Source: a virus
DNA: 34,267 nt
Virus record (IMG/VR): IMGVR_UViG_3300035209_000026
Coordinates: 1 to 34,267 of that record
Strand: one strand, 5' to 3'
Numbering within the stretch: position 1 is the first letter of the stretch; each line of letters starts with the position of its first letter. Below are positions 10,613 through 32,471 of the stretch, in pieces. Below the pieces are notes generated by a model. The model saw only the letters and a list, made by a program, of their open reading frames with translations. It searched no databases and was not told the DNA's origin. Both the position numbers and the translations under genes were made by a program.

Positions 10613-11620
10613 TCAGATCGTCAGGAAGGTGAAGTTGGTGACGCGGCCACAGGACTTCGGCTTCGTCACGACCATCTCGGCCAGCGTCAGCACTGCGCCG
10701 ATGTAGCCGATCTGGAAGTTCGAGAGCATCGACTCGAAGCCGCTGAAGGTGAAACACGCCTGCTCGTGAACGTAGAGGTTCAGGTAGTTCGTGTTCGCGA
10801 AGTAGACCGTGCCCTCCGGGCAGTACGGGTCGGCGTAGATCGGCACACCGGCCACATCGAGCGCTCGGAAGGCCGAGCGCGGGCGGTCAGCGTCCGAATC
10901 GAAGCCGTTGCCCGGCTGGATCTGGTACGACTCCGCACCGATGTAGTCGAGCCCGAGCTGAGCGAACGTGCCGAATCCGCAGACGCCGAAGGTCGGCATC
11001 TCGGCGCCGTTCTTGTTGACGCCGGCGAGGTACTGAAAGATCCTCGCGCGCGTCGGCGCAACGGAGCCGGCGTTGTACGACTTAGCCTGCCACCACGTAT
11101 TCGCGGTGCGGTTGATGTTGCCGTAGGTGACGAGGTTCGTGCCGTCGTCCAGCGCGCCAGGCAGACCGATGATCTGCTGGTTGTTGCTGAAGTTGTTGAA
11201 CAGCGATTGACCGAGCGCGTCGGACGCACTGTTGGTCGCGTCGTTCATGCGCGCCTCGATCAGCGGGATGATCGCATGATCGAGCTGGACCGCACCTTCC
11301 ATGCCCAGGAAGGGGATCGGCGTCACGAGCGCCTTCAGGTTGAACTCTGCCGGGAACGACCCCTGCTGAGTCTGCGGCTGCTGGAACGAACCGCTGTAGT
11401 CCGTCCACTGCGTGTTGACGAACGGCTGGCCCTGAACCGGGACCGTGATGCTCGACACGCCGCCATAGGCGGTCTGCGCGTTGGCAAGCAGGGCCGCGAC
11501 CAGCGGGCTCGTGTTGTAGATCTGCACGACCATCTTCGGGATGAACGCGCGGCGCGTGACTGCGACGAGTTCGTTGCCGATGGGGCCGCTTGGCATCACG
11601 CCTTGACCGAGAACGGGCAT
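10613..11620 (-). CDS. Major capsid protein (HK97-fold type)
   Basis: The 335-residue product has the size and pattern of an HK97-fold capsid protein: an N-terminal strand and helix (residues 1-50), a region with alternating strands (VSSITVPVQGQPFVNTQW), a long spine-helix candidate (QLDHAIIPLIEARMNDATNS) near 115-140, and a C-terminal A-domain-like part ending in CGRVTNFTFLTI. A perfect AGGAG lies six bases before the ATG, the strongest ribosome site seen in the window, as expected for the most abundant virion protein. It follows the scaffold-like gene. There is no apparent protease gene, so capsid maturation probably proceeds without a phage-encoded processing enzyme. Confidence 0.85.
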   Translation of the reverse strand: MPVLGQGVMPSGPIGNELVAVTRRAFIPKMVVQIYNTSPLVAALLANAQTAYGGVSSITVPVQGQPFVNTQWTDYSGSFQQPQTQQGSFPAEFNLKALVTPIPFLGMEGAVQLDHAIIPLIEARMNDATNSASDALGQSLFNNFSNNQQIIGLPGALDDGTNLVTYGNINRTANTWWQAKSYNAGSVAPTRARIFQYLAGVNKNGAEMPTFGVCGFGTFAQLGLDYIGAESYQIQPGNGFDSDADRPRSAFRALDVAGVPIYADPYCPEGTVYFANTNYLNLYVHEQACFTFSGFESMLSNFQIGYIGAVLTLAEMVVTKPKSCGRVTNFTFLTI

Positions 11621-13055: not shown

Positions 13056-14696
13056 TCAAGATCCGCCGCCCGCCTTGCCTTTCTGCTGTTGAGCTTCGCG
13101 CTCGGCCTGCTGCTTCTCTTGCGGTTCGATCTTAGTACGAAGATCGTCGATGAGCAACTGCTCCATCGGAACATGAAGAAGCTGGATGAAACGCTCCCTC
13201 GTGATCGCTTTCGCCTTCAGCAGCTCGGTCGCTTTCTGTTCCTGATCTTCCATGAAGATCGGGCTGTTGCTGTGAGCATCCACCTTGACCACGTAGTCGT
13301 CGGGGAATTGGTTGGCGGAGAATTTCACTCCGTCCTCGTCCATGTACTCGGCCTTGTCGTCGTAGTGCTGCATCATCTGCGCGTACAGAGTGGCAGACTT
13401 CTCCAGGGAATCCTCGACCACCAGCGCACGCTTCTTGGCGCGGCTCGATCCGAGTTTGGCGAGCTGATTCGCGTGACCGCTTGACCGAACTCCCGACTCT
13501 CCTCGACCGGAGAGCACGTTCGTCATGCCGCTCATCTCCTCGAACATATAGTCGATTTCCTTGATCTCCTTGAACAGATCATCAGGAATATCCGGCGCAA
13601 GATTCTCGACCTTGGCGCCTGGTTGCTCTGACTGAATGTAGCCGGCCGGAGAGTCGAGAGCCGCCGCCAGCTCGTCCGTGATACCAGGGAATCCACTGAA
13701 CGACTTCGGGGGCTTGGCCTGCTTGTCCATCATTCGCTGGATCTGATACATGCGCGTGTTGCGCATCATCTGAAGCGGAATCAGCCGCTCAACTTCGCTG
13801 ATCCCCCAGAAGTAGTCATGAACGGGAGTCGGGCAGATCTGAACGAACGGCTGCTCATCCTTCACGAACATTTTGTCGAGCGCCCGGTCGAAGATCGGAA
13901 CGCCAGGGGCCGCGATGGTGACGATTCGATACCCGTTGATCTTTGAGTCCCACAGGTACAGCTCGTACATTTCAACCATGTCGTCCGATGACTCGGGAAC
14001 GTACAGGTCGATCCCCGTCAGATTCGCTCCGACGTTTCCGGTGATAACGCCGTCGCTGATGCTGGAGGCGATCACCTGATTTATCATTCCGCCCGATCTG
14101 TCCTCTCTGTGAGGAGACGGGGCGAGGCTCTTGAGTATTGTCTCCAACGCCGGATGCTCGCATGACTTCAACTCATCCGAGAGTTGCGAGCTGGAGATCT
14201 GGTACACCTGACAGAAAGCCTCCTGCTTTGAAAGCTGAGATATGTCCTCCCTCAGAACTCCGAAGTTGTGCGGGTCGATGACGCTTGGATCGACTTGCTT
14301 TCCGTCCCAACGATGCTTCAGCAGCTCCGTTCCGTAGACGTGCGCCCACAACAGCGCGTTGCCGAACACGATGTCTCCGTTCGATGCGTGCCAATGATCG
14401 TTGATTGCCTGGCTGAAGCGCCCTACCTTCTTCATCTCTCCGGTGGGCACGGCTGCCCCGAGCTTCGACTGGAACGTGGTCGTCTCCTGCGAGTACATGA
14501 ACGACACGATCTGGTCGATGTGAGGATAGATCTTGTTGTAAGTCTCGTTCTGATCCGTGTCGCCGCCCGTTCCGTACAGGAAGAACTGCCGGAAGGTGTT
14601 GTACCGCTCGATGCGATCACCTCTTGATCTGAGGCAGGCATTGCGGACGTTCTGATAGAACGCCTCCCGGCTTTCCTGTGAATCAGGGATTTCCAT
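13056..14696 (-). CDS. Portal protein
   Basis: A 546-residue protein encoded after the terminase and before the head genes. It has the features of a podovirus portal: N-terminal helical region (YNTFRQFFLYGTGGDTDQNE), a central part with LLWAHVYGTELLKHRWDG and PHNFGVLREDISQLSK, the crown and stem region with GISEVERLIPLQMMRNTRMY, and a helical C-terminal barrel rich in Gln, Lys and Glu. The dodecameric portal forms the DNA entry vertex and docks terminase and later the adaptor. The ATG overlaps the upstream gene by 14 bases. Length fits the P22- and SU10-like range, without an appended protease. Confidence 0.85.
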   Translation of the reverse strand: MEIPDSQESREAFYQNVRNACLRSRGDRIERYNTFRQFFLYGTGGDTDQNETYNKIYPHIDQIVSFMYSQETTTFQSKLGAAVPTGEMKKVGRFSQAINDHWHASNGDIVFGNALLWAHVYGTELLKHRWDGKQVDPSVIDPHNFGVLREDISQLSKQEAFCQVYQISSSQLSDELKSCEHPALETILKSLAPSPHREDRSGGMINQVIASSISDGVITGNVGANLTGIDLYVPESSDDMVEMYELYLWDSKINGYRIVTIAAPGVPIFDRALDKMFVKDEQPFVQICPTPVHDYFWGISEVERLIPLQMMRNTRMYQIQRMMDKQAKPPKSFSGFPGITDELAAALDSPAGYIQSEQPGAKVENLAPDIPDDLFKEIKEIDYMFEEMSGMTNVLSGRGESGVRSSGHANQLAKLGSSRAKKRALVVEDSLEKSATLYAQMMQHYDDKAEYMDEDGVKFSANQFPDDYVVKVDAHSNSPIFMEDQEQKATELLKAKAITRERFIQLLHVPMEQLLIDDLRTKIEPQEKQQAEREAQQQKGKAGGGS

Positions 14697-15159: not shown

Positions 15160-15616
15160 TTTTCCTCTCCAAAACTTCAGCGAAGGTAGGCATCCGCGGA
15201 GCGTCTGACGGCTGAGCCGCGGGTATCATATTCAGTTTGAGCCCTTTTCGGCCAATGCTCATGAATCCAAGGGCCTTGGGCTTGTTCTCTATCAGCGGCT
15301 TCGGGCTGGCCGTGAGCTGGGCGACGCCACACTGCTTCCCTCGCTTCATGCTCGGGATCATGACCAGCTCCCCGATCAGGATTCTCCTCAACTGACGGCT
15401 TACCCGCTTCTGCAAGCTCAATGGGAGCGGCTTCCCGCCGAACACATAGCGCCGCAACTGCGACTGACCGACGAATCCGAGGGTCTTTGCAAGGCACATG
15501 GAGTCGAACCACCACCCGTACTTCGGCTCATCCATGAGCCTTTTGCACCACTGAATGATCTCGGTCGCCTCGATGACCTTCTCTCCGTCAGCGTCAACGT
15601 GCCTTGGCGATTCCAC
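15143..15616 (-). CDS. Hypothetical protein with helix-turn-helix-like region
   Basis: A 157-residue product from a GTG start at 15616 with GGAG six bases upstream; the frame overlaps the terminase 3' end by 23 bases. Residues about 35-85 (CLAKTLGFVGQSQLRRYVFG and the following KPLPLSLQKRVSRQLRRILI) resemble a helix-turn-helix with a basic recognition helix, and the C-terminal part is Lys-rich. A DNA-binding protein next to the large terminase could be the missing small terminase, although small subunits usually precede the large one. That alternative is speculative. Confidence 0.65.
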   Translation of the reverse strand: MESPRHVDADGEKVIEATEIIQWCKRLMDEPKYGWWFDSMCLAKTLGFVGQSQLRRYVFGGKPLPLSLQKRVSRQLRRILIGELVMIPSMKRGKQCGVAQLTASPKPLIENKPKALGFMSIGRKGLKLNMIPAAQPSDAPRMPTFAEVLERKNARST

Positions 15617-17426
15617 CGGATACTCCAGGTATGGTCTGCTTGATCGGCTGGATCAATCCGGCTCGCTGGAACATCGTGGTGATGATCCTGCTGGTCTGAT
15701 CGCCTCCACGCATCGCAACGTCCGAGTGCGACCGCTCGTAAGACATGCCTTCCATCATGAGCCTGGTGCGTACTTGGTCGTTCCACGCGATGATGGCGAG
15801 GCCAGCGGCGATCACTCGGTCGTCCTTGCTTCTGCTGTTCGCTCTCGGCTGACCGCCCTCCTCTCGAACCATCGACTTCATCTCGTCGATCAGATCTCTC
15901 GAGTGGACGACCGCAAAGCCTCTCTCGAAATAATCCTTGAACGCTCCGAGGTATCGCTCTTTGGTCAGATAGCTCGTCTGCGTGTGGATCGCCGTGGGCT
16001 GGTTGTACAGGCCGTCTCGACGCGCGTACAGGTAAGTCCTGATCGACTTCATGACGTTCTGCATTCCGGGACGCTCTGACACCGGTCCAACGAATCTGGT
16101 CCTGCTGATGTTCTGCAACTCGTTGAGCACCGCCTGGCCAGGGCCGTTCACTTCCAGGTTCCAGGTGCAGGGCTCATAGGCGCCGGCGAGATACACCATC
16201 ACCCATGCGAAGGCGTATGTGTCCATGTCCGTAGTGCAGAACTCAGCAACCTGCTCGATGCGGTCGGAGTAGCAGCGCCACACGCTTATCGCATACCTGT
16301 CCGCTTCCTCGCTGCTTCCATACGCCGGATCTGCGCCGAGTACGTAGACCCCTCCCGCAGCCGGTTCAAACCATACTTTGAGCGTTGCAACTCTTGAAGG
16401 GCAGTCGAGTAACTGCGTGTCTGCGAAGTTGGCTCCGACATGGACCTTGAAATAGTGAGGGGGTGACTGTTTGTGGAGCCCCTTGTAAGTCTCACCGAGC
16501 TTCCGAGCTGTGAAGAACTGAGAGCCAGATGCCACGAAAGCAGCGAACTCTGTAGCTGGGTATTCCTGATCCAGCATGATCTCGTTGCCATCTAACTTCT
16601 CCTTGAGCATCCACCGCCGCCATGCGATCTGCTCGTCATCCATCTCGACCTGATAGAGCGCCTTGCACTCCTTGAGCATCGCCCGCTCGTCGCTCGTCAT
16701 GCGACCGGCGCCTCCCCAATAGGCTTTCCAGACATCGCCGCCGCGCTTTGCGCGATACAGCTCGTTTGCCCAAAAGCCTATGAAAATAGCCCTTTTTGAT
16801 ACGGCGTCCTTCGAGGACATCCACATATCGTAGAAGTGATTGAACCCGTTCGCCGTGCTTTCCCAATGGAACAGGCGGTGTGGATTTTCCTGAGCGAAGG
16901 TCGCTATCAGGGAGTCGATGCCGGAGGGGTCTCCGTAGAACGCGCATTCGGTTGCATGGCAAAAAGAAAGAGCAGACGACCTACCGAGAGTTCCCTTTCC
17001 TTTCGCGGTCGTCCCCGCGACTTTGTACTGGAACCGGGATTTGTTTTTGAATACGAGCTGGTTCCTGTTGTGCTGGATGATCGGCCACTTGAGTTCTCGT
17101 GGGAGCGATTCATAGTACATTTCCAGCGTTGTTCGAAATTGATCTCTCGATGGCTCGTCGTGGACGATGAGAGCGCCGTTGATTCCCTTGTACTTCCCTG
17201 CCCAATACAGATCCATCGCCAGGGAGATTGTGCTGATGCCGAGCTGGCGGGCCTTCAGGGTGACGAACTCGTGAACGCCATCCTCCAAGCCCTTGACCAT
17301 CTCGTTGATGAGACGGCGCTGAGTGCCGAGCAGGCGAGTTCCTAGCTTTACTTGGCCTCGGTCCTTCGTTTCGACCTTCAAACGGTCGCAGAACTTCCAG
17401 AAGCCTGTTAGATCGAACTGTGACAT
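15594..17426 (-). CDS. terL: Terminase large subunit (packaging ATPase and nuclease)
   Basis: The 610-residue protein drives DNA into the procapsid and cuts the concatemer. Residues 57-66 (LKARQLGIST) are the variant Walker A of TerL proteins; residues 153-160 (LSFCHATE) carry the Walker B glutamate. The C-terminal RNase H-like nuclease shows the first acidic residue in VLGADPAYG (Asp366), a second in WNLEVNG (Glu425) and a third in SKDDRVIAAGLA (Asp535/536). GGGGG precedes the ATG. It lies after the PASTA gene (16-base gap) and before the portal. No adjacent canonical small subunit was recognised. Confidence 0.93.
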   Translation of the reverse strand: MSQFDLTGFWKFCDRLKVETKDRGQVKLGTRLLGTQRRLINEMVKGLEDGVHEFVTLKARQLGISTISLAMDLYWAGKYKGINGALIVHDEPSRDQFRTTLEMYYESLPRELKWPIIQHNRNQLVFKNKSRFQYKVAGTTAKGKGTLGRSSALSFCHATECAFYGDPSGIDSLIATFAQENPHRLFHWESTANGFNHFYDMWMSSKDAVSKRAIFIGFWANELYRAKRGGDVWKAYWGGAGRMTSDERAMLKECKALYQVEMDDEQIAWRRWMLKEKLDGNEIMLDQEYPATEFAAFVASGSQFFTARKLGETYKGLHKQSPPHYFKVHVGANFADTQLLDCPSRVATLKVWFEPAAGGVYVLGADPAYGSSEEADRYAISVWRCYSDRIEQVAEFCTTDMDTYAFAWVMVYLAGAYEPCTWNLEVNGPGQAVLNELQNISRTRFVGPVSERPGMQNVMKSIRTYLYARRDGLYNQPTAIHTQTSYLTKERYLGAFKDYFERGFAVVHSRDLIDEMKSMVREEGGQPRANSRSKDDRVIAAGLAIIAWNDQVRTRLMMEGMSYERSHSDVAMRGGDQTSRIITTMFQRAGLIQPIKQTIPGVSGGIAKAR

Positions 17427-19872: not shown

Positions 19873-22569
19873 TCACCACTTGATCAGGATGTCGCCGTCG
19901 TTCGGGTTGACCGGTATGTTCACGCCGGCGTTGTAGACCGCGCCATTGAAGAACGGATCATCCCAGCAGGAGAGACGCTTCACTCGCATTGGCAGCGTGA
20001 CGTTCTGTTGGCCGCCCATTTCTGGCGACCCGCACAGGAAGTACGCATTGGCCGTCTCTCTCATGTAGACATTGTTCTGGTACGGAGCCGAGGCCGGCGT
20101 GTTGCTGACCACCGCACCGTATGCGGTGAGAGCGATGTAGTTCGCCGTGTACGGATTCGCCTCACCCGTCGCATTCTGGATGTTCGGGTTGTAGTACGAC
20201 ATGCGGACCTGCTGCTGGTCCATCGGCACGTAGTCCACAAGCGCGTCGATTCTCGGGCCGTAGTCCCAATTCGTCGTCACCACGCAGCGAGTGAGGTGGA
20301 AGCGGCGTCTTTGCAGCTCTGCCGCATCGACTGTCGAGCTTACCTCGTGGTCATAGATGATCTTTCCGGTCGCGTTCGCTCTTTGCGATGACGACACGTT
20401 GTTGATGGCCCTGTCGATCCAGTTTCCGGCGCCGGCGAAGTTCATGTTCACCGAGCCGATGTGCTCAGCGAGGCCGCCATCCAGAGATCCGGCGTAGCCT
20501 GCGATGCCTGCCGGGTCCATGTTCTGGAACCAGTTGGACACGTTGGCGTATTTTCCGCCGCTCGAGCCGACGAGCGTTCTCCACTCATCCCACGAGAGCT
20601 TGTATCCGGTCCTGATCGCGGCCGGCGCGCCGGTATTCCCCGGAGTCCAGACTCCAGGGGAGAGCCAGGGGGCGGCGAACACGTCGTCATCGTAGCTGAA
20701 CAGGACATACGCATTGGCTGAGAGGCCCATGCTTGCCAGCGGGTAGGCGACGACTGTGTTGCCCGCCCGGAATCCGTTCCAAAGGTACTGAGCGTAGGCT
20801 CGCTGCATGGTGCGGCTGGTGCCATCCAGGGCGGTTGCCGCGAAGTTGGCGACCAGCGTGTCACCGAAGCCATCGACCCAATGCTTGAGCGTGCCGTCAT
20901 CGAGCAGGACGGCCCAGCCGGAGCCGTAGGTTGCGTATCCCGACCAGCTTTGGACGATGTTGTTCCAGTTCGTCGATTGGCCGCGCGTTCCATCGAGGTA
21001 GGGGACGCCGTTCCAGTTCTGATTCTTCGCCTTGATCTGCGCCCACACCGACTGCATGGAGACGCCGTAGCGTTGCTCCCATGAGTTGATGTACGCCATG
21101 ATCGTGAATCGCTCTTGCGAGGCGAGCTGGATGAACCGAGAGGAGTTCAGGTTGTCGCTTGAGCCGCCGATGATGTATGAGCCCATGCCGAGCAGCAGGC
21201 CGGTCGAGACGTTCGGGATCGAGAGCACGAGGATCTGCGAGGCTGCTGACACGTTCGGCGTGCCGGTGTTGTCGCGTGCCTTGACCGAGATATTGAGTGT
21301 CTGTCCTGGCGAGACTGTCGGGGTGTAGGTGGGCTGCACGTCGTCGATGCTGACGGCGACCTGTTGGACGGCGCCGCTCACTGCGCTCACGCCGTCATCC
21401 GAGGCGATGCCCACCAGGAAGTAGGGGTTGCTGCCGAGGCTGATGCTGACTGCCGAGCCGACGGGGGAGAAGTTCTTGCCGTCGGTCGAGTAGATGGGCT
21501 GGACCGAGACGGCGTTGGTGATCTCGAAGCCGAACCAGACGGGGCCTTGCGGTGTACTGACCGTGGCGCCGTCGATGGACACGGCGCCGACGGTTTGGCG
21601 GTACTCGACCTTTGCCCCTTGCCCGAGGTTGAAGGGGAATTGCAGGAGCTTGATGTTGGCCGATCCCGCGCTCGTATCGGCGCGGAGCATGGCGAAGATC
21701 TTGGAGTAGAGCCAAGAGGCTGACCAGGTGGAGGGGATCTTCCAGGTGAGCCGGGTGAAGGTCGAGGCGCCGAGCGGGATGGTTGCGCCCATTCCCGGAA
21801 ATCGGTCAGCGGTACCGAAGCAGGTGCCACCGGTGCAGGCGAGGGAGAAGTCCGAGTTGGTCTGCGTCACCGTGACGCCGCTGAGGGCCGAGCCGATGGT
21901 GAGTGCGGCTGGTGTCCACTGGAAGCCTGCGGTCTGGGAGACGGATCCGAGGAGGCTCACGCCGTCGTAGAACTGCAAGTCCTTGCGTCCGCTCCACGCG
22001 GCGCCGGCCGGCGAGGGGTCTGCTGGCGGGAACACGGAGACGACTGGGGCGGCTTGGGAGCCTGTGTTGCGGAGGCCGACGGGGATGGTGGGAGCTGAGC
22101 TGTCGGCCGCGGCGCTGACGGAGTTGACCGAGAAGGAGTTGGAGTCGATGTTGACGCCGAGGTAGGTCGTTCTGGCGGTCAGGGAGCCGCTGCCGGCGCC
22201 GGAGCAGGTCAGGACCGTCCCGACCAGGGACCACCCGGCCACGGAGCCCACCAAGCTGATCGTGACCGTGTGGCCCCTGGTATCGAGGTAGGGTGCCAGA
22301 TCGAGTGTGAACCCGGCTGTCTTGTTGGTCGAGTCCGGGATGACTGACCAGATGGGGTTCGTGACGCTGCCTGGCGTTGTACCGAATGTCGGTCGTCTCA
22401 GCACACTCAAGTCCTCCGTGCCGATGACCCCCATTGCGGCCTGCATGGCGCGCCAGTCCGCGGCCGGCAGATAGTAGCGCGTGAGCGAATTACGCGCGAG
22501 GACGCGGCGGGTGACGACCGTGAGGTCAGTCAGCGCTTGATCGAGCTGCTGGTCGGTCGGTGCGCTCAA
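19873..22569 (-). CDS. Tailspike-like host-recognition protein, possible glycan hydrolase
   Basis: The 898-residue protein begins at a TTG with a strong AAAGGAG six to seven bases ahead. Residues 1-50 are helical; about 58-150 form an Ig/cadherin-like beta domain with TVTISLVGSVAGWSLVG; about 165-440 are beta-rich lectin-like segments; and about 455-760 contain alternating strands and helices with MAYINSWEQR, YVLFSYDDD, SWDEWRTLVG and IIYDHEVSS, suggesting a TIM-barrel hydrolase. Several Asp and Glu residues in these strands could be catalytic, but no known glycosidase family is claimed. It is the largest late protein; its place at the start of the late block is unusual. Confidence 0.65.
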   Translation of the reverse strand: MSAPTDQQLDQALTDLTVVTRRVLARNSLTRYYLPAADWRAMQAAMGVIGTEDLSVLRRPTFGTTPGSVTNPIWSVIPDSTNKTAGFTLDLAPYLDTRGHTVTISLVGSVAGWSLVGTVLTCSGAGSGSLTARTTYLGVNIDSNSFSVNSVSAAADSSAPTIPVGLRNTGSQAAPVVSVFPPADPSPAGAAWSGRKDLQFYDGVSLLGSVSQTAGFQWTPAALTIGSALSGVTVTQTNSDFSLACTGGTCFGTADRFPGMGATIPLGASTFTRLTWKIPSTWSASWLYSKIFAMLRADTSAGSANIKLLQFPFNLGQGAKVEYRQTVGAVSIDGATVSTPQGPVWFGFEITNAVSVQPIYSTDGKNFSPVGSAVSISLGSNPYFLVGIASDDGVSAVSGAVQQVAVSIDDVQPTYTPTVSPGQTLNISVKARDNTGTPNVSAASQILVLSIPNVSTGLLLGMGSYIIGGSSDNLNSSRFIQLASQERFTIMAYINSWEQRYGVSMQSVWAQIKAKNQNWNGVPYLDGTRGQSTNWNNIVQSWSGYATYGSGWAVLLDDGTLKHWVDGFGDTLVANFAATALDGTSRTMQRAYAQYLWNGFRAGNTVVAYPLASMGLSANAYVLFSYDDDVFAAPWLSPGVWTPGNTGAPAAIRTGYKLSWDEWRTLVGSSGGKYANVSNWFQNMDPAGIAGYAGSLDGGLAEHIGSVNMNFAGAGNWIDRAINNVSSSQRANATGKIIYDHEVSSTVDAAELQRRRFHLTRCVVTTNWDYGPRIDALVDYVPMDQQQVRMSYYNPNIQNATGEANPYTANYIALTAYGAVVSNTPASAPYQNNVYMRETANAYFLCGSPEMGGQQNVTLPMRVKRLSCWDDPFFNGAVYNAGVNIPVNPNDGDILIKW

Positions 22570-22927
22570 TGCGCGCTCCTTTCTTCAGGTTGCAGCGAGG
22601 GGCAAGGAGCTGGATGTTCTCGAGCCCATCCACCCCGCCGAGCGCCAGCGGCACCACATGGTCCACATGATACCCGGCGAACAGCGAGCGCCCGCACCCG
22701 CACGCGCACGTCCCGCCCTGGCGCCGGAACAAGCTCGCAATCTCGATCACCGAGTAGGGGATCCCCTTGACCGCCCCTCGGCGCTTCGCCGCGTGCGCAG
22801 CGTCAGCCGGCCGCCGACAATCCCGGCACCTCGTGTGCTTTTTCCCACCGCCCGCTGAACGGAACCAGCCAAGCGGCCTCACTCGATCACACCCTGTGCA
22901 GCGTCGAAGCAGCGGCGGAAGGACCAT
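22526..22927 (-). CDS. HNH endonuclease
   Basis: The 133-residue product (ATG at 22927, GAGG seven bases ahead) has an N-terminal four-cysteine zinc site (Cys10, Cys13, Cys34, Cys37) and a C-terminal HNH nuclease: His87-x-Asp89-His90 in YHVDHVVPLALGG, Asn104 in GLENIQLL and Asn113 in RCNLKKGAR. The CACGCGR segment may hold a second structural zinc. HNH proteins next to terminase genes can be needed for cutting packaged DNA; others are homing enzymes. The gene overlaps the spike gene by 44 bases. Confidence 0.9.
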   Translation of the reverse strand: MVLPPLLRRCTGCDRVRPLGWFRSAGGGKKHTRCRDCRRPADAAHAAKRRGAVKGIPYSVIEIASLFRRQGGTCACGCGRSLFAGYHVDHVVPLALGGVDGLENIQLLAPRCNLKKGARIERTDRPAARSSAD

Positions 22928-22936
22928 CGTCACCCC

Positions 22937-23614
22937 TCAGCTCCCATTTCCGTAGTCCACCCACATCGAGTCATCGAACTTGGAACTCGCACGGTCTAAC
23001 CGGTAATTCCCAAACTCCGACTTCAGCGGATCGAAGCGGTACGAAGCAAGCATCTCCTGGGCAATCCCGTGCAGCCGAATCGACTCACCGATCTTCCCCA
23101 TCACCTCATCCACCGAAGCGAGCTGCTGCATCACGAGCGAGGAGAAAAGATCCATCGGCGCCTCCTCACCCTCCTTCGCTACCGTCGAGCTGCGCCCCTT
23201 CACGCTCATCAACCGCTTCTTCACCTCTCCAATCTTCGAGAGCTGAGCCTCCGCTCCATTCTTCGACAGGATGATCACATCGTTGATCTGACCCTTCCAC
23301 TCCATGTACAGAGTACCGCTCTCAATGAAGCTCGAAAACGCCATGCACAAGATCCTCATGGCCTGCTGCTCATCGCTATTCAAAGGCTTGTCACGCCCCG
23401 TCTCGTCAAACGCAGCGCGCCTCTCCACATCCATCAGCAGCGCATAGGCCGCGTTCAATCGCTGCATCTTCTCGTGCGATCCGTCTGGACGATCCGGGTG
23501 CGCCTTCTTCGCCGCTCGCCGGAATGCAGTCTTGATCGCCGCTTCATCCGAATCCCGCGTGATGCCAAGCACCACGTAAGGATCCTCAACCTCAGCACCC
23601 TTCTCGCTCATCAT
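22937..23614 (-). CDS. J-domain (DnaJ-like) phage protein
   Basis: First gene of the late block, 225 residues from the ATG at 23614 (an ATG also at 23611), with GAGGGGG six bases ahead. Residues 11-75 form a J-domain: DPYVVLGITRDSDEAAIKTA, then His39-Pro40-Asp41 in KKAHPDRPDG, then LNAAYALLMDVERRAAFDET. The rest is helical and charged, without the Gly/Phe or zinc-finger parts of full DnaJ. The HPD triad is required to stimulate DnaK, so this protein may recruit host DnaK to a phage substrate such as capsid, terminase or the origin complex. The role is inferred. Confidence 0.88.
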   Translation of the reverse strand: MMSEKGAEVEDPYVVLGITRDSDEAAIKTAFRRAAKKAHPDRPDGSHEKMQRLNAAYALLMDVERRAAFDETGRDKPLNSDEQQAMRILCMAFSSFIESGTLYMEWKGQINDVIILSKNGAEAQLSKIGEVKKRLMSVKGRSSTVAKEGEEAPMDLFSSLVMQQLASVDEVMGKIGESIRLHGIAQEMLASYRFDPLKSEFGNYRLDRASSKFDDSMWVDYGNGS

Positions 23615-23724
23615 CTGCCCCCTCTGAAAGTGCTCCACAGCATGACGGAATTTTTTTTGGGGGGCAAAAGGGATGGCGGAGACCGAATTCACCGCCCCCG
23701 ACCCAATTGCCGGCTGCGCGCGCT

Positions 23725-23773
23725 GGCCGCCTGGCGAGCGGCGCGGCTGCCTGGCCGGGGCTGGCTGCCTGGC
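23725..23773 (+). repeat. Three near-identical 11-bp direct repeats
   Basis: GGCCGCCTGGC at 23725-23735, GGCTGCCTGGC at 23745-23755 and GGCTGCCTGGC at 23763-23773. Start-to-start distances are 20 and 18 bases, about two helical turns, so all copies lie on nearly the same DNA face, as in operator or iteron arrays. They end immediately before the sigma-54-like dyad. Confidence 0.7.
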
Positions 23774-23807
23774 TTGGCACGTCTTTTGCCGGCAAGGATT
23801 GTGCCAA
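23774..23807. promoter_or_regulatory. Symmetrical dyad matching sigma-54 -24/-12 on both strands
   Basis: TTGGCAC, five bases, the palindrome TTGCCGGCAA, five bases, then GTGCCAA. Read rightward, TGGCACGTCTTTTGC matches the RpoN consensus TGGCACG-N4-TTGC exactly, with GG and GC ten bases apart. Read leftward, TGGCACAATCCTTGC fits with one difference. Leftward transcription would start about 23780, around 165 bases before the J-domain gene. The symmetry means the two matches are not independent, and the dyad could instead be an operator or recombination core. Confidence 0.5.
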
Positions 23808-23874
23808 AACGCTGGCACGGCGAGCGGCGATCCCCAAAGGCCCGCCCAATTTGTCGTTACGCAGCATAACCCAT

Positions 23875-23923
23875 CTTGACACAACTTGACGGTTATAGCC
23901 GCAACGCAGCACAAACAGTCAAG
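23875..23923. repeat. CTTGAC elements, two direct and one inverted
   Basis: CTTGAC at 23875-23880 and 23885-23890 (exactly one helical turn apart) and its complement GTCAAG at 23918-23923. They flank and overlap the leftward promoter at 23892-23922, so they may be repressor or activator sites. Confidence 0.55.
23892..23922 (-). promoter_or_regulatory. Putative leftward sigma-70-like promoter for the late operon
   Basis: On the minus strand, TTGACT (23922-23917) and TATAAC (23897-23892) are separated by 19 bases. The -10 matches five of six positions; the spacer is two longer than ideal, so strength is uncertain or an activator is needed. It would produce a leader of about 270 bases before the J-domain gene. 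Confidence 0.45.
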
Positions 23924-23959
23924 ATCTGGTAGGACAAGAAAACAACAACATCCTGGAGG

Positions 23960-23979
23960 TTATCCACAGGTTGTTCACA
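23960..23979 (+). promoter_or_regulatory. DnaA box and second, weaker DnaA-like box
   Basis: TTATCCACA at 23960-23968 is an exact match to the strongest DnaA box; TTGTTCACA at 23971-23979 differs from TTATNCACA at one position and has the same orientation, 11 bases on. An AT-rich stretch follows directly, as in origins opened by DnaA. This suggests host DnaA helps start phage replication here, consistent with the primase and helicase genes elsewhere in the window. Confidence 0.6.
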
Positions 23980-23989
23980 TTTTTCTTAA

Positions 23990-24122
23990 CCTATGTCCGA
24001 GATAACCCAAAAAACCGCGTTTTCTAAAAAGGGGTCCGGGAGGCTACTGTTAAATAGCCTCTTCCCCCCCCTATATTCCTATTTACCTACTACTACTTAT
24101 GGAAGGTTATATAGGACATAGG
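23990..24122. repeat. 9-bp inverted repeat enclosing an AT-rich segment
   Basis: CCTATGTCC at 23990-23998 and GGACATAGG at 24114-24122 are perfect complements. They enclose 115 AT-rich bases that include the stem-loop at 24040-24061 and a pyrimidine tract (about 24058-24099). Confidence 0.6.
24031..24075. terminator. Stem-loop with flanking G/C runs, possible leftward terminator
   Basis: GAGGCTA (24040-24046) and TAGCCTC (24055-24061) make a 7-bp stem with an eight-base loop. GGGG at 24031-24034 and a C8 run at 24064-24071 can extend it past an internal loop. On the minus strand the stem is followed by TTTTT (24026-24030 as A5), the layout of an intrinsic terminator for any leftward transcript entering from the early region. 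It may instead be part of the origin. Confidence 0.4.
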
Positions 24123-24268
24123 GTGAGCTGCCGGGACGTATCAGTCACTTAGCCGCAACCGAGGCAACGGTTAATCAATGGACAATGGACAGCGTGCGGT
24201 GCTGGCGCTCCGGCAAGTGTAGCGGGGGTCGAGGTGCGCAGAATGCGGGATATATTCACGGAACAACT

Positions 24269-24296
24269 TTGACAGTCTGCGTCTGACTGTTAGAAG
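24269..24296 (+). promoter_or_regulatory. Early promoter with operator in its spacer
   Basis: TTGACA at 24269-24274 is a perfect -35; TAGAAG at 24291-24296 is a moderate -10, with a 16-base spacer. The spacer contains the inverted repeat ACAGTC (24272-24277) and GACTGT (24285-24290) with a seven-base centre, so a dimeric repressor bound here would block the promoter. Transcription would begin about 30 bases before the first early gene at 24330. Confidence 0.5.
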
Positions 24297-24329
24297 ATAG
24301 CGCCATACCGAAGCGGGAGTACAAAGACC

Positions 24330-24797
24330 ATGCACTACGAAGAAGCAATGCAATTTGCCACGGCGTCCGCCGAAATGGCATGGGACCAGCGCAACGATAA
24401 GACGTATGACAACGTGGAGGATGCACGCGATAGCTACCGCGAGAACGTCCGCGAGCGCTGGAGCAATCAAACCGACAGCGGGCAGAATCGCCTGTCACCT
24501 TCGGATGATCGCGCGCACCTGCGAGCCGTCACGTATCCGGGCATAGCTGCGGCAATGGCCGCTCAATGGAATTGTGGTGTCGCCATGAATGTACGCCATG
24601 AGATAGAGGCGCGATCTTCGGCGGATGACAAGCCTGTTTTGCTTTGGCTTTTCGATCGCTACCACATGGACTGGCAATGGCGATTTGTAGCGCGCTGCGA
24701 GCACGTTAGATACGGTCCTATGTCTTACGAAACACACCGCGTGTGGTTTCCGACTACGGAAGGTCGCGTGCTGTATGCGGCAATGGTGTCGCCATGA
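24330..24797 (+). CDS. First early-operon protein, unknown function, 155 aa
   Basis: A 155-residue soluble protein with GGGAG ten bases before the ATG, just downstream of the early promoter. It has a charged N-terminal half (MHYEEAMQFATASAEMAWDQ), a middle helix (YPGIAAAMAAQWNCGVAMNV) and a Trp- and Arg-rich C-terminal half (YHMDWQWRFVARCEHVRYG). Its TGA overlaps the next start as ATGA. As the first product of the early operon it may be a host-takeover factor. No known family recognised. Confidence 0.75.
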   Translation: MHYEEAMQFATASAEMAWDQRNDKTYDNVEDARDSYRENVRERWSNQTDSGQNRLSPSDDRAHLRAVTYPGIAAAMAAQWNCGVAMNVRHEIEARSSADDKPVLLWLFDRYHMDWQWRFVARCEHVRYGPMSYETHRVWFPTTEGRVLYAAMVSP

Positions 24798-26281: not shown

Positions 26282-26463
26282 GGAAAAAGAATTTTGCCGT
26301 GCGCATCTTGCTGGCGTGTCGGCGCCGTCGATGGATGCGGGGGCGCCTGGACGGGGAGCCGCCGATGATCCCGCCAACAGGGGGATTTGTAGACTTGAAG
26401 CCTTACCAACTCTATTTTGGGTCCGCATGGCGCAACGAGCGCGAAGGAAAGAATGATGGCTGA
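26278..26463 (+). CDS. Early small basic protein, 61 aa
   Basis: A 61-residue protein in an ATGA overlap with the previous gene. The first 25 residues are rich in Lys and Arg (MRKKNFAVRILLACRRRRWM) with a hydrophobic core, so they could bind nucleic acid or a membrane surface; the remainder (PPMIPPTGGFVDLKPYQLYF) is compact and hydrophobic. Unknown family. Confidence 0.62.
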   Translation: MRKKNFAVRILLACRRRRWMRGRLDGEPPMIPPTGGFVDLKPYQLYFGSAWRNEREGKNDG

Positions 26464-26725
26464 GAAGAAACTGACGTGGGCCGCAGTGCTCGACATCCGC
26501 GCCGCTGCTGAGGAGCGTCAAGGCATGAAGATGCGGCAGAAGAACATCACGCGCGAAGCCCTGTGCAAGCGCCACGGCGTGTGCGTCACCACACTTCAGG
26601 CGGTGGAGAAGGGGCATCGTTACCTGACTCCGCAGGACTGTGTTCCTGAGCGGCCGGAGCCATCGCCAGTGGACGCTGAAGCGGGCGACGGTTCTCCGCC
26701 AGAATCCCCGCCGTGCGCGGATTGA
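26456..26725 (+). CDS. HTH-containing small protein, possible early regulator
   Basis: An 89-residue product from the ATG at 26456 (or 26453), with AAGGAAAG closely ahead. Residues about 6-55 form a helix-turn-helix region (LTWAAVLDIRAAAEERQG, then EALCKRHGVCVTTLQAVEKG), close to DNA-binding segments of phage regulators and homing nucleases. The C-terminal third is Pro/Ser/Asp-rich and disordered. The 3' end overlaps the convergent primase gene by 140 bases. Confidence 0.7.
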   Translation: MAEKKLTWAAVLDIRAAAEERQGMKMRQKNITREALCKRHGVCVTTLQAVEKGHRYLTPQDCVPERPEPSPVDAEAGDGSPPESPPCAD

Positions 26726-31526: not shown

Positions 31527-32471
31527 ATGCTTCATTATCCCAAGGGCCGAGAGGACTGGCTGGCGCTTCGCCACCAGTTCGTGAGCAGCACTGAGTCTGC
31601 TGCCGTGTTCGGCCACAGTCCGTATCTCACGCCTTACGAACTGGCCGTCTACAAGTCCGACAAGGCGAAGGATGATTTCGCCGGCAACGAGCGGACGGAG
31701 TGGGGGCTCGCCCTCCAGCGTCCCATCGCAGACAAGTTCGCAGAGAAGCACGGGCTGAAGATCCGCGCGCTCAACGCCTACGCCGCTCGAGGAGCCATCG
31801 GCGCGAGCTTCGACTTCGAGATCGTCGGAGCAGAGGGGACTGGCGCGCTTGCGGAAATGTACCGCACGCATGGCGCGGGAGTGCTGGAGATCAAGAACGT
31901 CGATGCCTGGATCTACAAGCAGCAGTGGGTCGATGGCGAGGCACCCGCTCACATCGAGATCCAGGTGCAGCACCAGCTCGAGGCCATCGAGCGAGAGTGG
32001 GCCATCATCGGTGTGCTGGTCGGAGGCAACCGCATGGAGCACATCGTTCGCTGGCGCGACAAGGAAGTGGGCCGCGCCATCGACGTGAAATGCACGGAGT
32101 TCTTGGAGAACTTGAAGGCCGGCGTCATGCCGCCAATCGAGCTGCCTGCGGACGCCGAGATCATTCGCAAGGTGTACAGTTTCGCGGACCCCGGCAAGGT
32201 GCTCGACGAGTCGATCATGGCGCCCGACGTGACTGACCAGATAGTCGCGCTTTGCGGACTGTACGAGGAAGCTGGCAAGACCAAGAGGGCGGCCGAGGAA
32301 GCTCAGAAGTCCGCACAGGCTCAGCTCCTCCAGCTCATCGGCACGGCTGAGAAGGTCGTCACCAAGAGGTACGGCATCAGCGCAGGCATGGTCGCTGCCT
32401 GCCACATCGAATACGACCGAGAGCCGTATCGCCTGTTCCGAGTCACCGCCAAGAAGGAGAAGTCAAAGTGA
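31527..32471 (+). CDS. YqaJ-type (lambda-exonuclease-like) recombinase nuclease
   Basis: The 314-residue protein starts at the ATG at 31527, with AAGGGG ahead. It carries YqaJ features: WLALRHQFVSSTESAAVFGH near residue 11-30, TEWGLALQRPIADKFAEKHG with Glu58, an acidic SFDFEIV near 94-100, LEIKN (Glu121, Lys123) and QVQHQLEAIE (near 146-155), forming the PD-(D/E)xK core. It digests one strand from double-strand ends to make 3' tails for the RecT protein two genes on. A helical C-terminus (about 265-290) is rich in Ala and Lys. Confidence 0.9.
   Translation: MLHYPKGREDWLALRHQFVSSTESAAVFGHSPYLTPYELAVYKSDKAKDDFAGNERTEWGLALQRPIADKFAEKHGLKIRALNAYAARGAIGASFDFEIVGAEGTGALAEMYRTHGAGVLEIKNVDAWIYKQQWVDGEAPAHIEIQVQHQLEAIEREWAIIGVLVGGNRMEHIVRWRDKEVGRAIDVKCTEFLENLKAGVMPPIELPADAEIIRKVYSFADPGKVLDESIMAPDVTDQIVALCGLYEEAGKTKRAAEEAQKSAQAQLLQLIGTAEKVVTKRYGISAGMVAACHIEYDREPYRLFRVTAKKEKSK

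Follow-up and report, generated by a model that had tools for sequence, protein, structure and literature searches.

A 34-bp tripartite dyad, TTGGCACGTCTTTTGCCGGCAAGGATTGTGCCAA (positions 23774-23807, no strand assigned), is present in the window (the whole 34,267-base stretch of phage DNA that was analyzed, an IMG/VR virus record) and is best described, judging from its sequence and from related phages, as a real feature, a lineage-variable 34-bp operator-like site. Dyads with the same size and pairing layout occupy the same place in relatives, and their letters differ. The chances are about even that the element, placed where late and early genes would be controlled, is an operator-like site bound by a regulator protein whose specificity has diverged. 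The comparative result displaces a tempting reading of the dyad as a sigma-54 promoter since some members of this phage group have tripartite dyads of 34 bp where the late and early genes meet, and the letters of these dyads vary with the lineage. If confirmed, the dyad would provide a handle toward its regulator.

The dyad reads TTGGCAC-N5-TTGCC|GGCAA-N5-GTGCCAA. The outer arms (23774-23780 and 23801-23807) surround a central 10-bp perfect palindrome, TTGCCGGCAA (23786-23795), and both 5-base spacers lack complementarity, which gives the pairing mask |||||||.....||||| (7 outer and 5 inner perfect pairs with 5 unpaired positions). When a class of dyads is defined by at least 5 inner and at least 7 outer perfect pairs and a spacer of 0 to 8, this is the sole member in the window. 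No intrinsic terminator was predicted at the dyad, and it has no match in Rfam as an RNA element.

The dyad is located in a 715-bp divergent intergenic region (23616-24329, delimited by gene positions), with the late start 160 bp away and the early start 523 bp away, where "late" and "early" are labels inferred from gene content and not from expression. The first late-side gene (22937-23614, minus strand) encodes a J-domain (DnaJ-like) protein of 225 amino acids (Pfam DnaJ, E 1.8e-15, residues 11-70), and AGAGGGGG is found just before its ATG on the minus strand. On the same strand, the late block also includes an HNH endonuclease-like gene (22526-22933; Pfam HNH, 6.8e-9), which is conserved in the syntenic relatives, and the terminase (15594-17426), portal (13056-14696), and capsid (10613-11620) genes assigned by gene calls and family searches. 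The first early-side gene (24330-24797, plus strand) encodes a protein of 155 amino acids with a short conserved domain of about 40 residues that was found in 56 otherwise varied viral loci, mostly at 52-82% identity. This gene opens a short plus-strand early block that is followed by a replication/recombination block encoding a VapE-type primase, a VRR nuclease, and a ResIII helicase (minus strand) and YqaJ and RecT (plus strand). The first-pass annotation had described symmetric elements with five-base spacers at 23774-23807 lying between divergent late and early operons; the elements and spacers are exact in the sequence, and the gene starts at 23614 (minus) and 24330 (plus) bear out the setting. 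TTGACA-16-TAGAAG (24269-24296, plus strand), which could serve the early genes as an ordinary sigma-70 promoter, was read by eye and is absent from a stricter scan. No DNA similarity to the gap region was detected among named phages, and searches of viral contigs by peptide patterns returned no relatives of the first late gene or the primase. The phage-encoded J-domain gene lies upstream of terminase, and a similar protein (27.5% identical) is encoded near the start of the late block in the viral record G013 (23248-23784, minus strand).

The phage belongs to a large, mostly uncultured group, with more than 500 viral records encoding a related capsid protein. Three relatives have dyads of this kind: IMG/VR 3300047170_000031 (G002), 3300009500_000003 (G003), and the fragment 3300009787_000054 (L057). 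The window, G002, and G003 have a common gene order (HNH, divergent gap, early genes, VapE, ResIII, YqaJ, RecT). The pattern AAATCG-N22-CGATTT occurs twice in the homologous gap of G002, once in that of G003, and once in L057 upstream of the HNH region, and a degenerate form of it was found only in these three among 2.9 million viral contigs. All four of these dyads are exactly 34 bp and even-centered, with a G+C-rich inner palindrome inside six outer pairs. Their masks over 17 pairs are |||||||.....|||.| (G002a) and ||||||.||.|.|.||| in G002, ||||||..|..||||.| in G003, and ||||||.|.|...||.| in L057. The gaps of G002 and G003 are mostly without a match to each other, and the longest conserved stretches are the dyad halves and short flanks. 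The window dyad resembles these sites in its length, its even center, an outer arm of 6-7 pairs, a mostly unpaired spacer, a G+C-rich inner palindrome, and its place in the late/early divergent gap, whereas it differs in its letters and in the presence of two copies in G002. Across 88 records (1.1 Mb), these sites make up most of the dyads that reach a similar strength outside long open frames.

G002, G003, and L057 form one close lineage (major capsid proteins 96-99% and TerL 88-95% identical) and therefore amount to one independent comparison, at roughly p 0.01; this lineage and the window are more distant, with capsids about 76% and terminases 53% identical. The window dyad and those of the relatives may be the same element; the statistical weight of this match is modest, given that chance alone produces a comparable 34-bp dyad about once per 70 kb. 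The sequence of the window dyad itself was not found in other viral contigs. Its sole match among 84,980 genomes was put down to chance: it falls in an unrelated Pricia antarctica coding sequence whose product, from its motifs, reads as lipB-like.

Symmetric phage operators are bound by dimeric or tetrameric repressors. Like them, the window dyad has two-fold symmetry and lies between divergent gene blocks, but it is longer than typical lambda-type operators. Binding of a protein to the dyad and the resulting control of transcription are inferred from these features and from the layout kept in relatives, which also favor the operator that the first-pass annotation had offered as a fallback. 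In the proposed mechanism, a two-fold symmetric regulator from the phage or the host, acting as a dimer or tetramer, would contact both the outer arms (TTGGCAC/GTGCCAA) and the inner palindrome (TTGCC|GGCAA), which would serve as four half-contacts. The bound regulator would control the late operon, whose start is 160 bp from the dyad, and perhaps the early genes as well, and divergence of its DNA specificity among lineages would yield the same layout in different letters. In G002, the half-site AAATCGACCTA occurs again near the start of the first late gene, which encodes a ribbon-helix-helix-like protein; this recurrence resembles an operator set and thus supports the operator reading. A similar kind of protein occupies the first-late slot in L057, with its own repeats. 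No counterpart of this ribbon-helix-helix-like gene was found in the window, where the J-domain gene occupies the slot.

Several other observations concern possible regulators and repeats in these genomes. An early protein of the window (26453-26725) has a weak HTH-like match (HTH_3, E 0.025) with no link to the dyad. Both G002 (L076 865-1131, minus strand) and G003 (L079 12422-12628, minus strand) encode a small conserved helix-turn-helix-like protein in the stretch that separates the early genes from VapE; it is Fis-like by eye, falls below Pfam HTH_8 detection, and has weak matches to other HTH families. Repeats of a CTAGGAC type in L057 (80-92, 141-155, and 281-320) lie on either side of its dyad and occur again upstream of the ribbon-helix-helix-like gene.

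Next after the operator comes the reading, itself unlikely, that a phage initiator binds the dyad within a replication origin. It ranks next because TTATCCACA (23960-23968, plus strand, from a consensus scan), the single match to the DnaA-box consensus anywhere in the window, lies in this gap beside A+T-rich stretches, and because the gap also has a strongly folding segment. This segment (23985-24127) folds very stably (z -4.7, with no shuffle as stable), lies some 200 bp ahead of the first early gene, and is a candidate origin hairpin or early leader structure. Comparable A+T-rich inverted repeats occur at the same place in G002 (38141-38197) and G003 (L079 9738-9804), and a VapE-type primase/helicase is common to the window and the relatives. 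However, about 150 bp separate the dyad from the DnaA box, the dyad occupies the G+C-rich portion of the gap, neither G002 nor G003 has a DnaA box in its syntenic gap, and one or two dyads are fewer than the usual iteron arrays.

It is likewise doubtful that the dyad is a functionless chance palindrome with a coincidental likeness to the layout in relatives. Findings of this kind are picked from much sequence, and about one in ten Markov-simulated windows contains a dyad of the defined class somewhere (10.5%, mean 0.115). The window dyad, however, lies in a gene-free control region, where the chance is about 1% or less: among simulations of the late/early gap, 1.15% held a 34-bp dyad that had five outer pairs and reached a total of 12 or more out of 17, and 0.05% held one with six outer and four inner pairs. 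Its 34-bp size and nearly identical mask also match the dyads conserved there in the relatives.

A sigma-54 promoter or promoter pair, in which host RpoN polymerase would use the plus or minus site and be fired by a host enhancer-binding protein, is improbable. Transcripts would start near 23800 from the plus site (toward the early genes) and near 23781 from the minus site (toward the late genes), and if this reading were true, phage development would be tied to the nutrient state of the host. Sigma-54 (RpoN) -24/-12 promoters have the consensus TGGCACG-N4-TTGC (PMC3224663, PMC3844500). The plus-strand string TGGCACGTCTTTTGC (23775-23789) matches it at 11 of 11 positions and the mirror string TGGCACAATCCTTGC (23792-23806, minus strand) at 10 of 11, so that the dyad has the GG-N10-GC core of these promoters, with TGGCAC and TTGC, on both strands. 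The pattern TGGCAC-N5-TTGC occurs twice in the window, once per strand and both times within the dyad of the gene-free region, against an expectation of 0.065. The first-pass annotation had called the plus site an exact RpoN consensus and the mirror site one change away. The latter holds (A in place of G); the former holds for TGGCACG-N4-TTGC and fails at the next base, a C at a position usually filled by A or T.

The two sites were scored with a position matrix whose training set was 28 intergenic Salmonella sites, mapped by ChIP and taken from PMC3844500. The plus site scored 13.7 and the mirror site 10.8, both below all 28 training sites (16.4-25.5), although the matrix comes from a single A+T-richer species and may penalize the window sites a little too heavily. 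Across 20 simulated (shuffled) windows, the highest scores ranged from 11.4 to 17.1, which places the plus site within the shuffled range and the mirror site below it. The low scores follow from the symmetry of the core, which imposes CGG after TTGC; in mapped sites that position is almost always A or T. Unlike sigma-54 promoters, the window dyad is symmetric, has this C, is accompanied by no phage activator gene, and is not kept as such in syntenic relatives. The sigma-54 activator domain PF00158 is absent from the phage-encoded proteins (a host activator could still act), as is HTH_8. Between 23500 and 24400 only two IHF-like sites were found, each with one mismatch (23961 and 24139), and none lies in the 120 bp adjoining the dyad. 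No literature on a sigma-54-dependent late or early phage promoter surfaced, which is not proof of absence.

The late/early gaps of nine relatives were also scored. The best scores in the syntenic gaps of G002 and G003 were 5.6 and 3.0, and their dyads scored negative. The dyads of G002, G003, and L057 keep the symmetry and lose the GG/GC spacing, the outcome that had been named in advance as counting against a sigma-54 promoter, and the conserved feature appears to be the symmetric site and not the spacing. With scores below those of ChIP-mapped sites, no encoded PF00158 activator, and no GG/GC spacing in syntenic relatives, the promoter claim was not sustained, and the resemblance is read as incidental to the sequences of the arms. 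Some probability is retained mainly because of a distant relative, MW202825, whose late/early gap contains the sole strong sigma-54-like site among the nine (TGGCACACGTATTGCATT / ATGGCACACGTATTGCA, record positions 32308-32324, plus strand, score 21.4), which points toward the early genes and lies within a short dyad, CACACGTATT-GCATT-AATACGTATG. The chance seems remote that host sigma-54 controls an early promoter in some members of this uncultured group, from inside a symmetric operator in the present phage and from the corresponding place in MW202825. A second sigma-54-like site in MW202825 (14458-) was rejected since it lies inside an unannotated open frame; the unannotated gap of about 1 kb there (approximately 13525-14521) appears to be an open coding frame from a TAATG junction. 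Two further sites, in the viral records L088 and L102, were rejected as well, since inspection by eye gave uninterrupted coding sequence there.

A site-specific recombination or dimer-resolution site is also improbable. The loxP and FRT cores are 34 bp with inverted arms, and the dyad matches them in size and arms, but its fully symmetric center is unusual among recombination cores, no integrase or resolvase was found among the window proteins scanned, and the window contains no dif-like site. In favor of this reading, L057 has a perfect dif-like Xer site, TTCGCATAATGAGCCTTATGTTAAAT (44-69), 37 bp from its 34-bp dyad, an indication that Xer recombination may integrate that phage or resolve its dimers.
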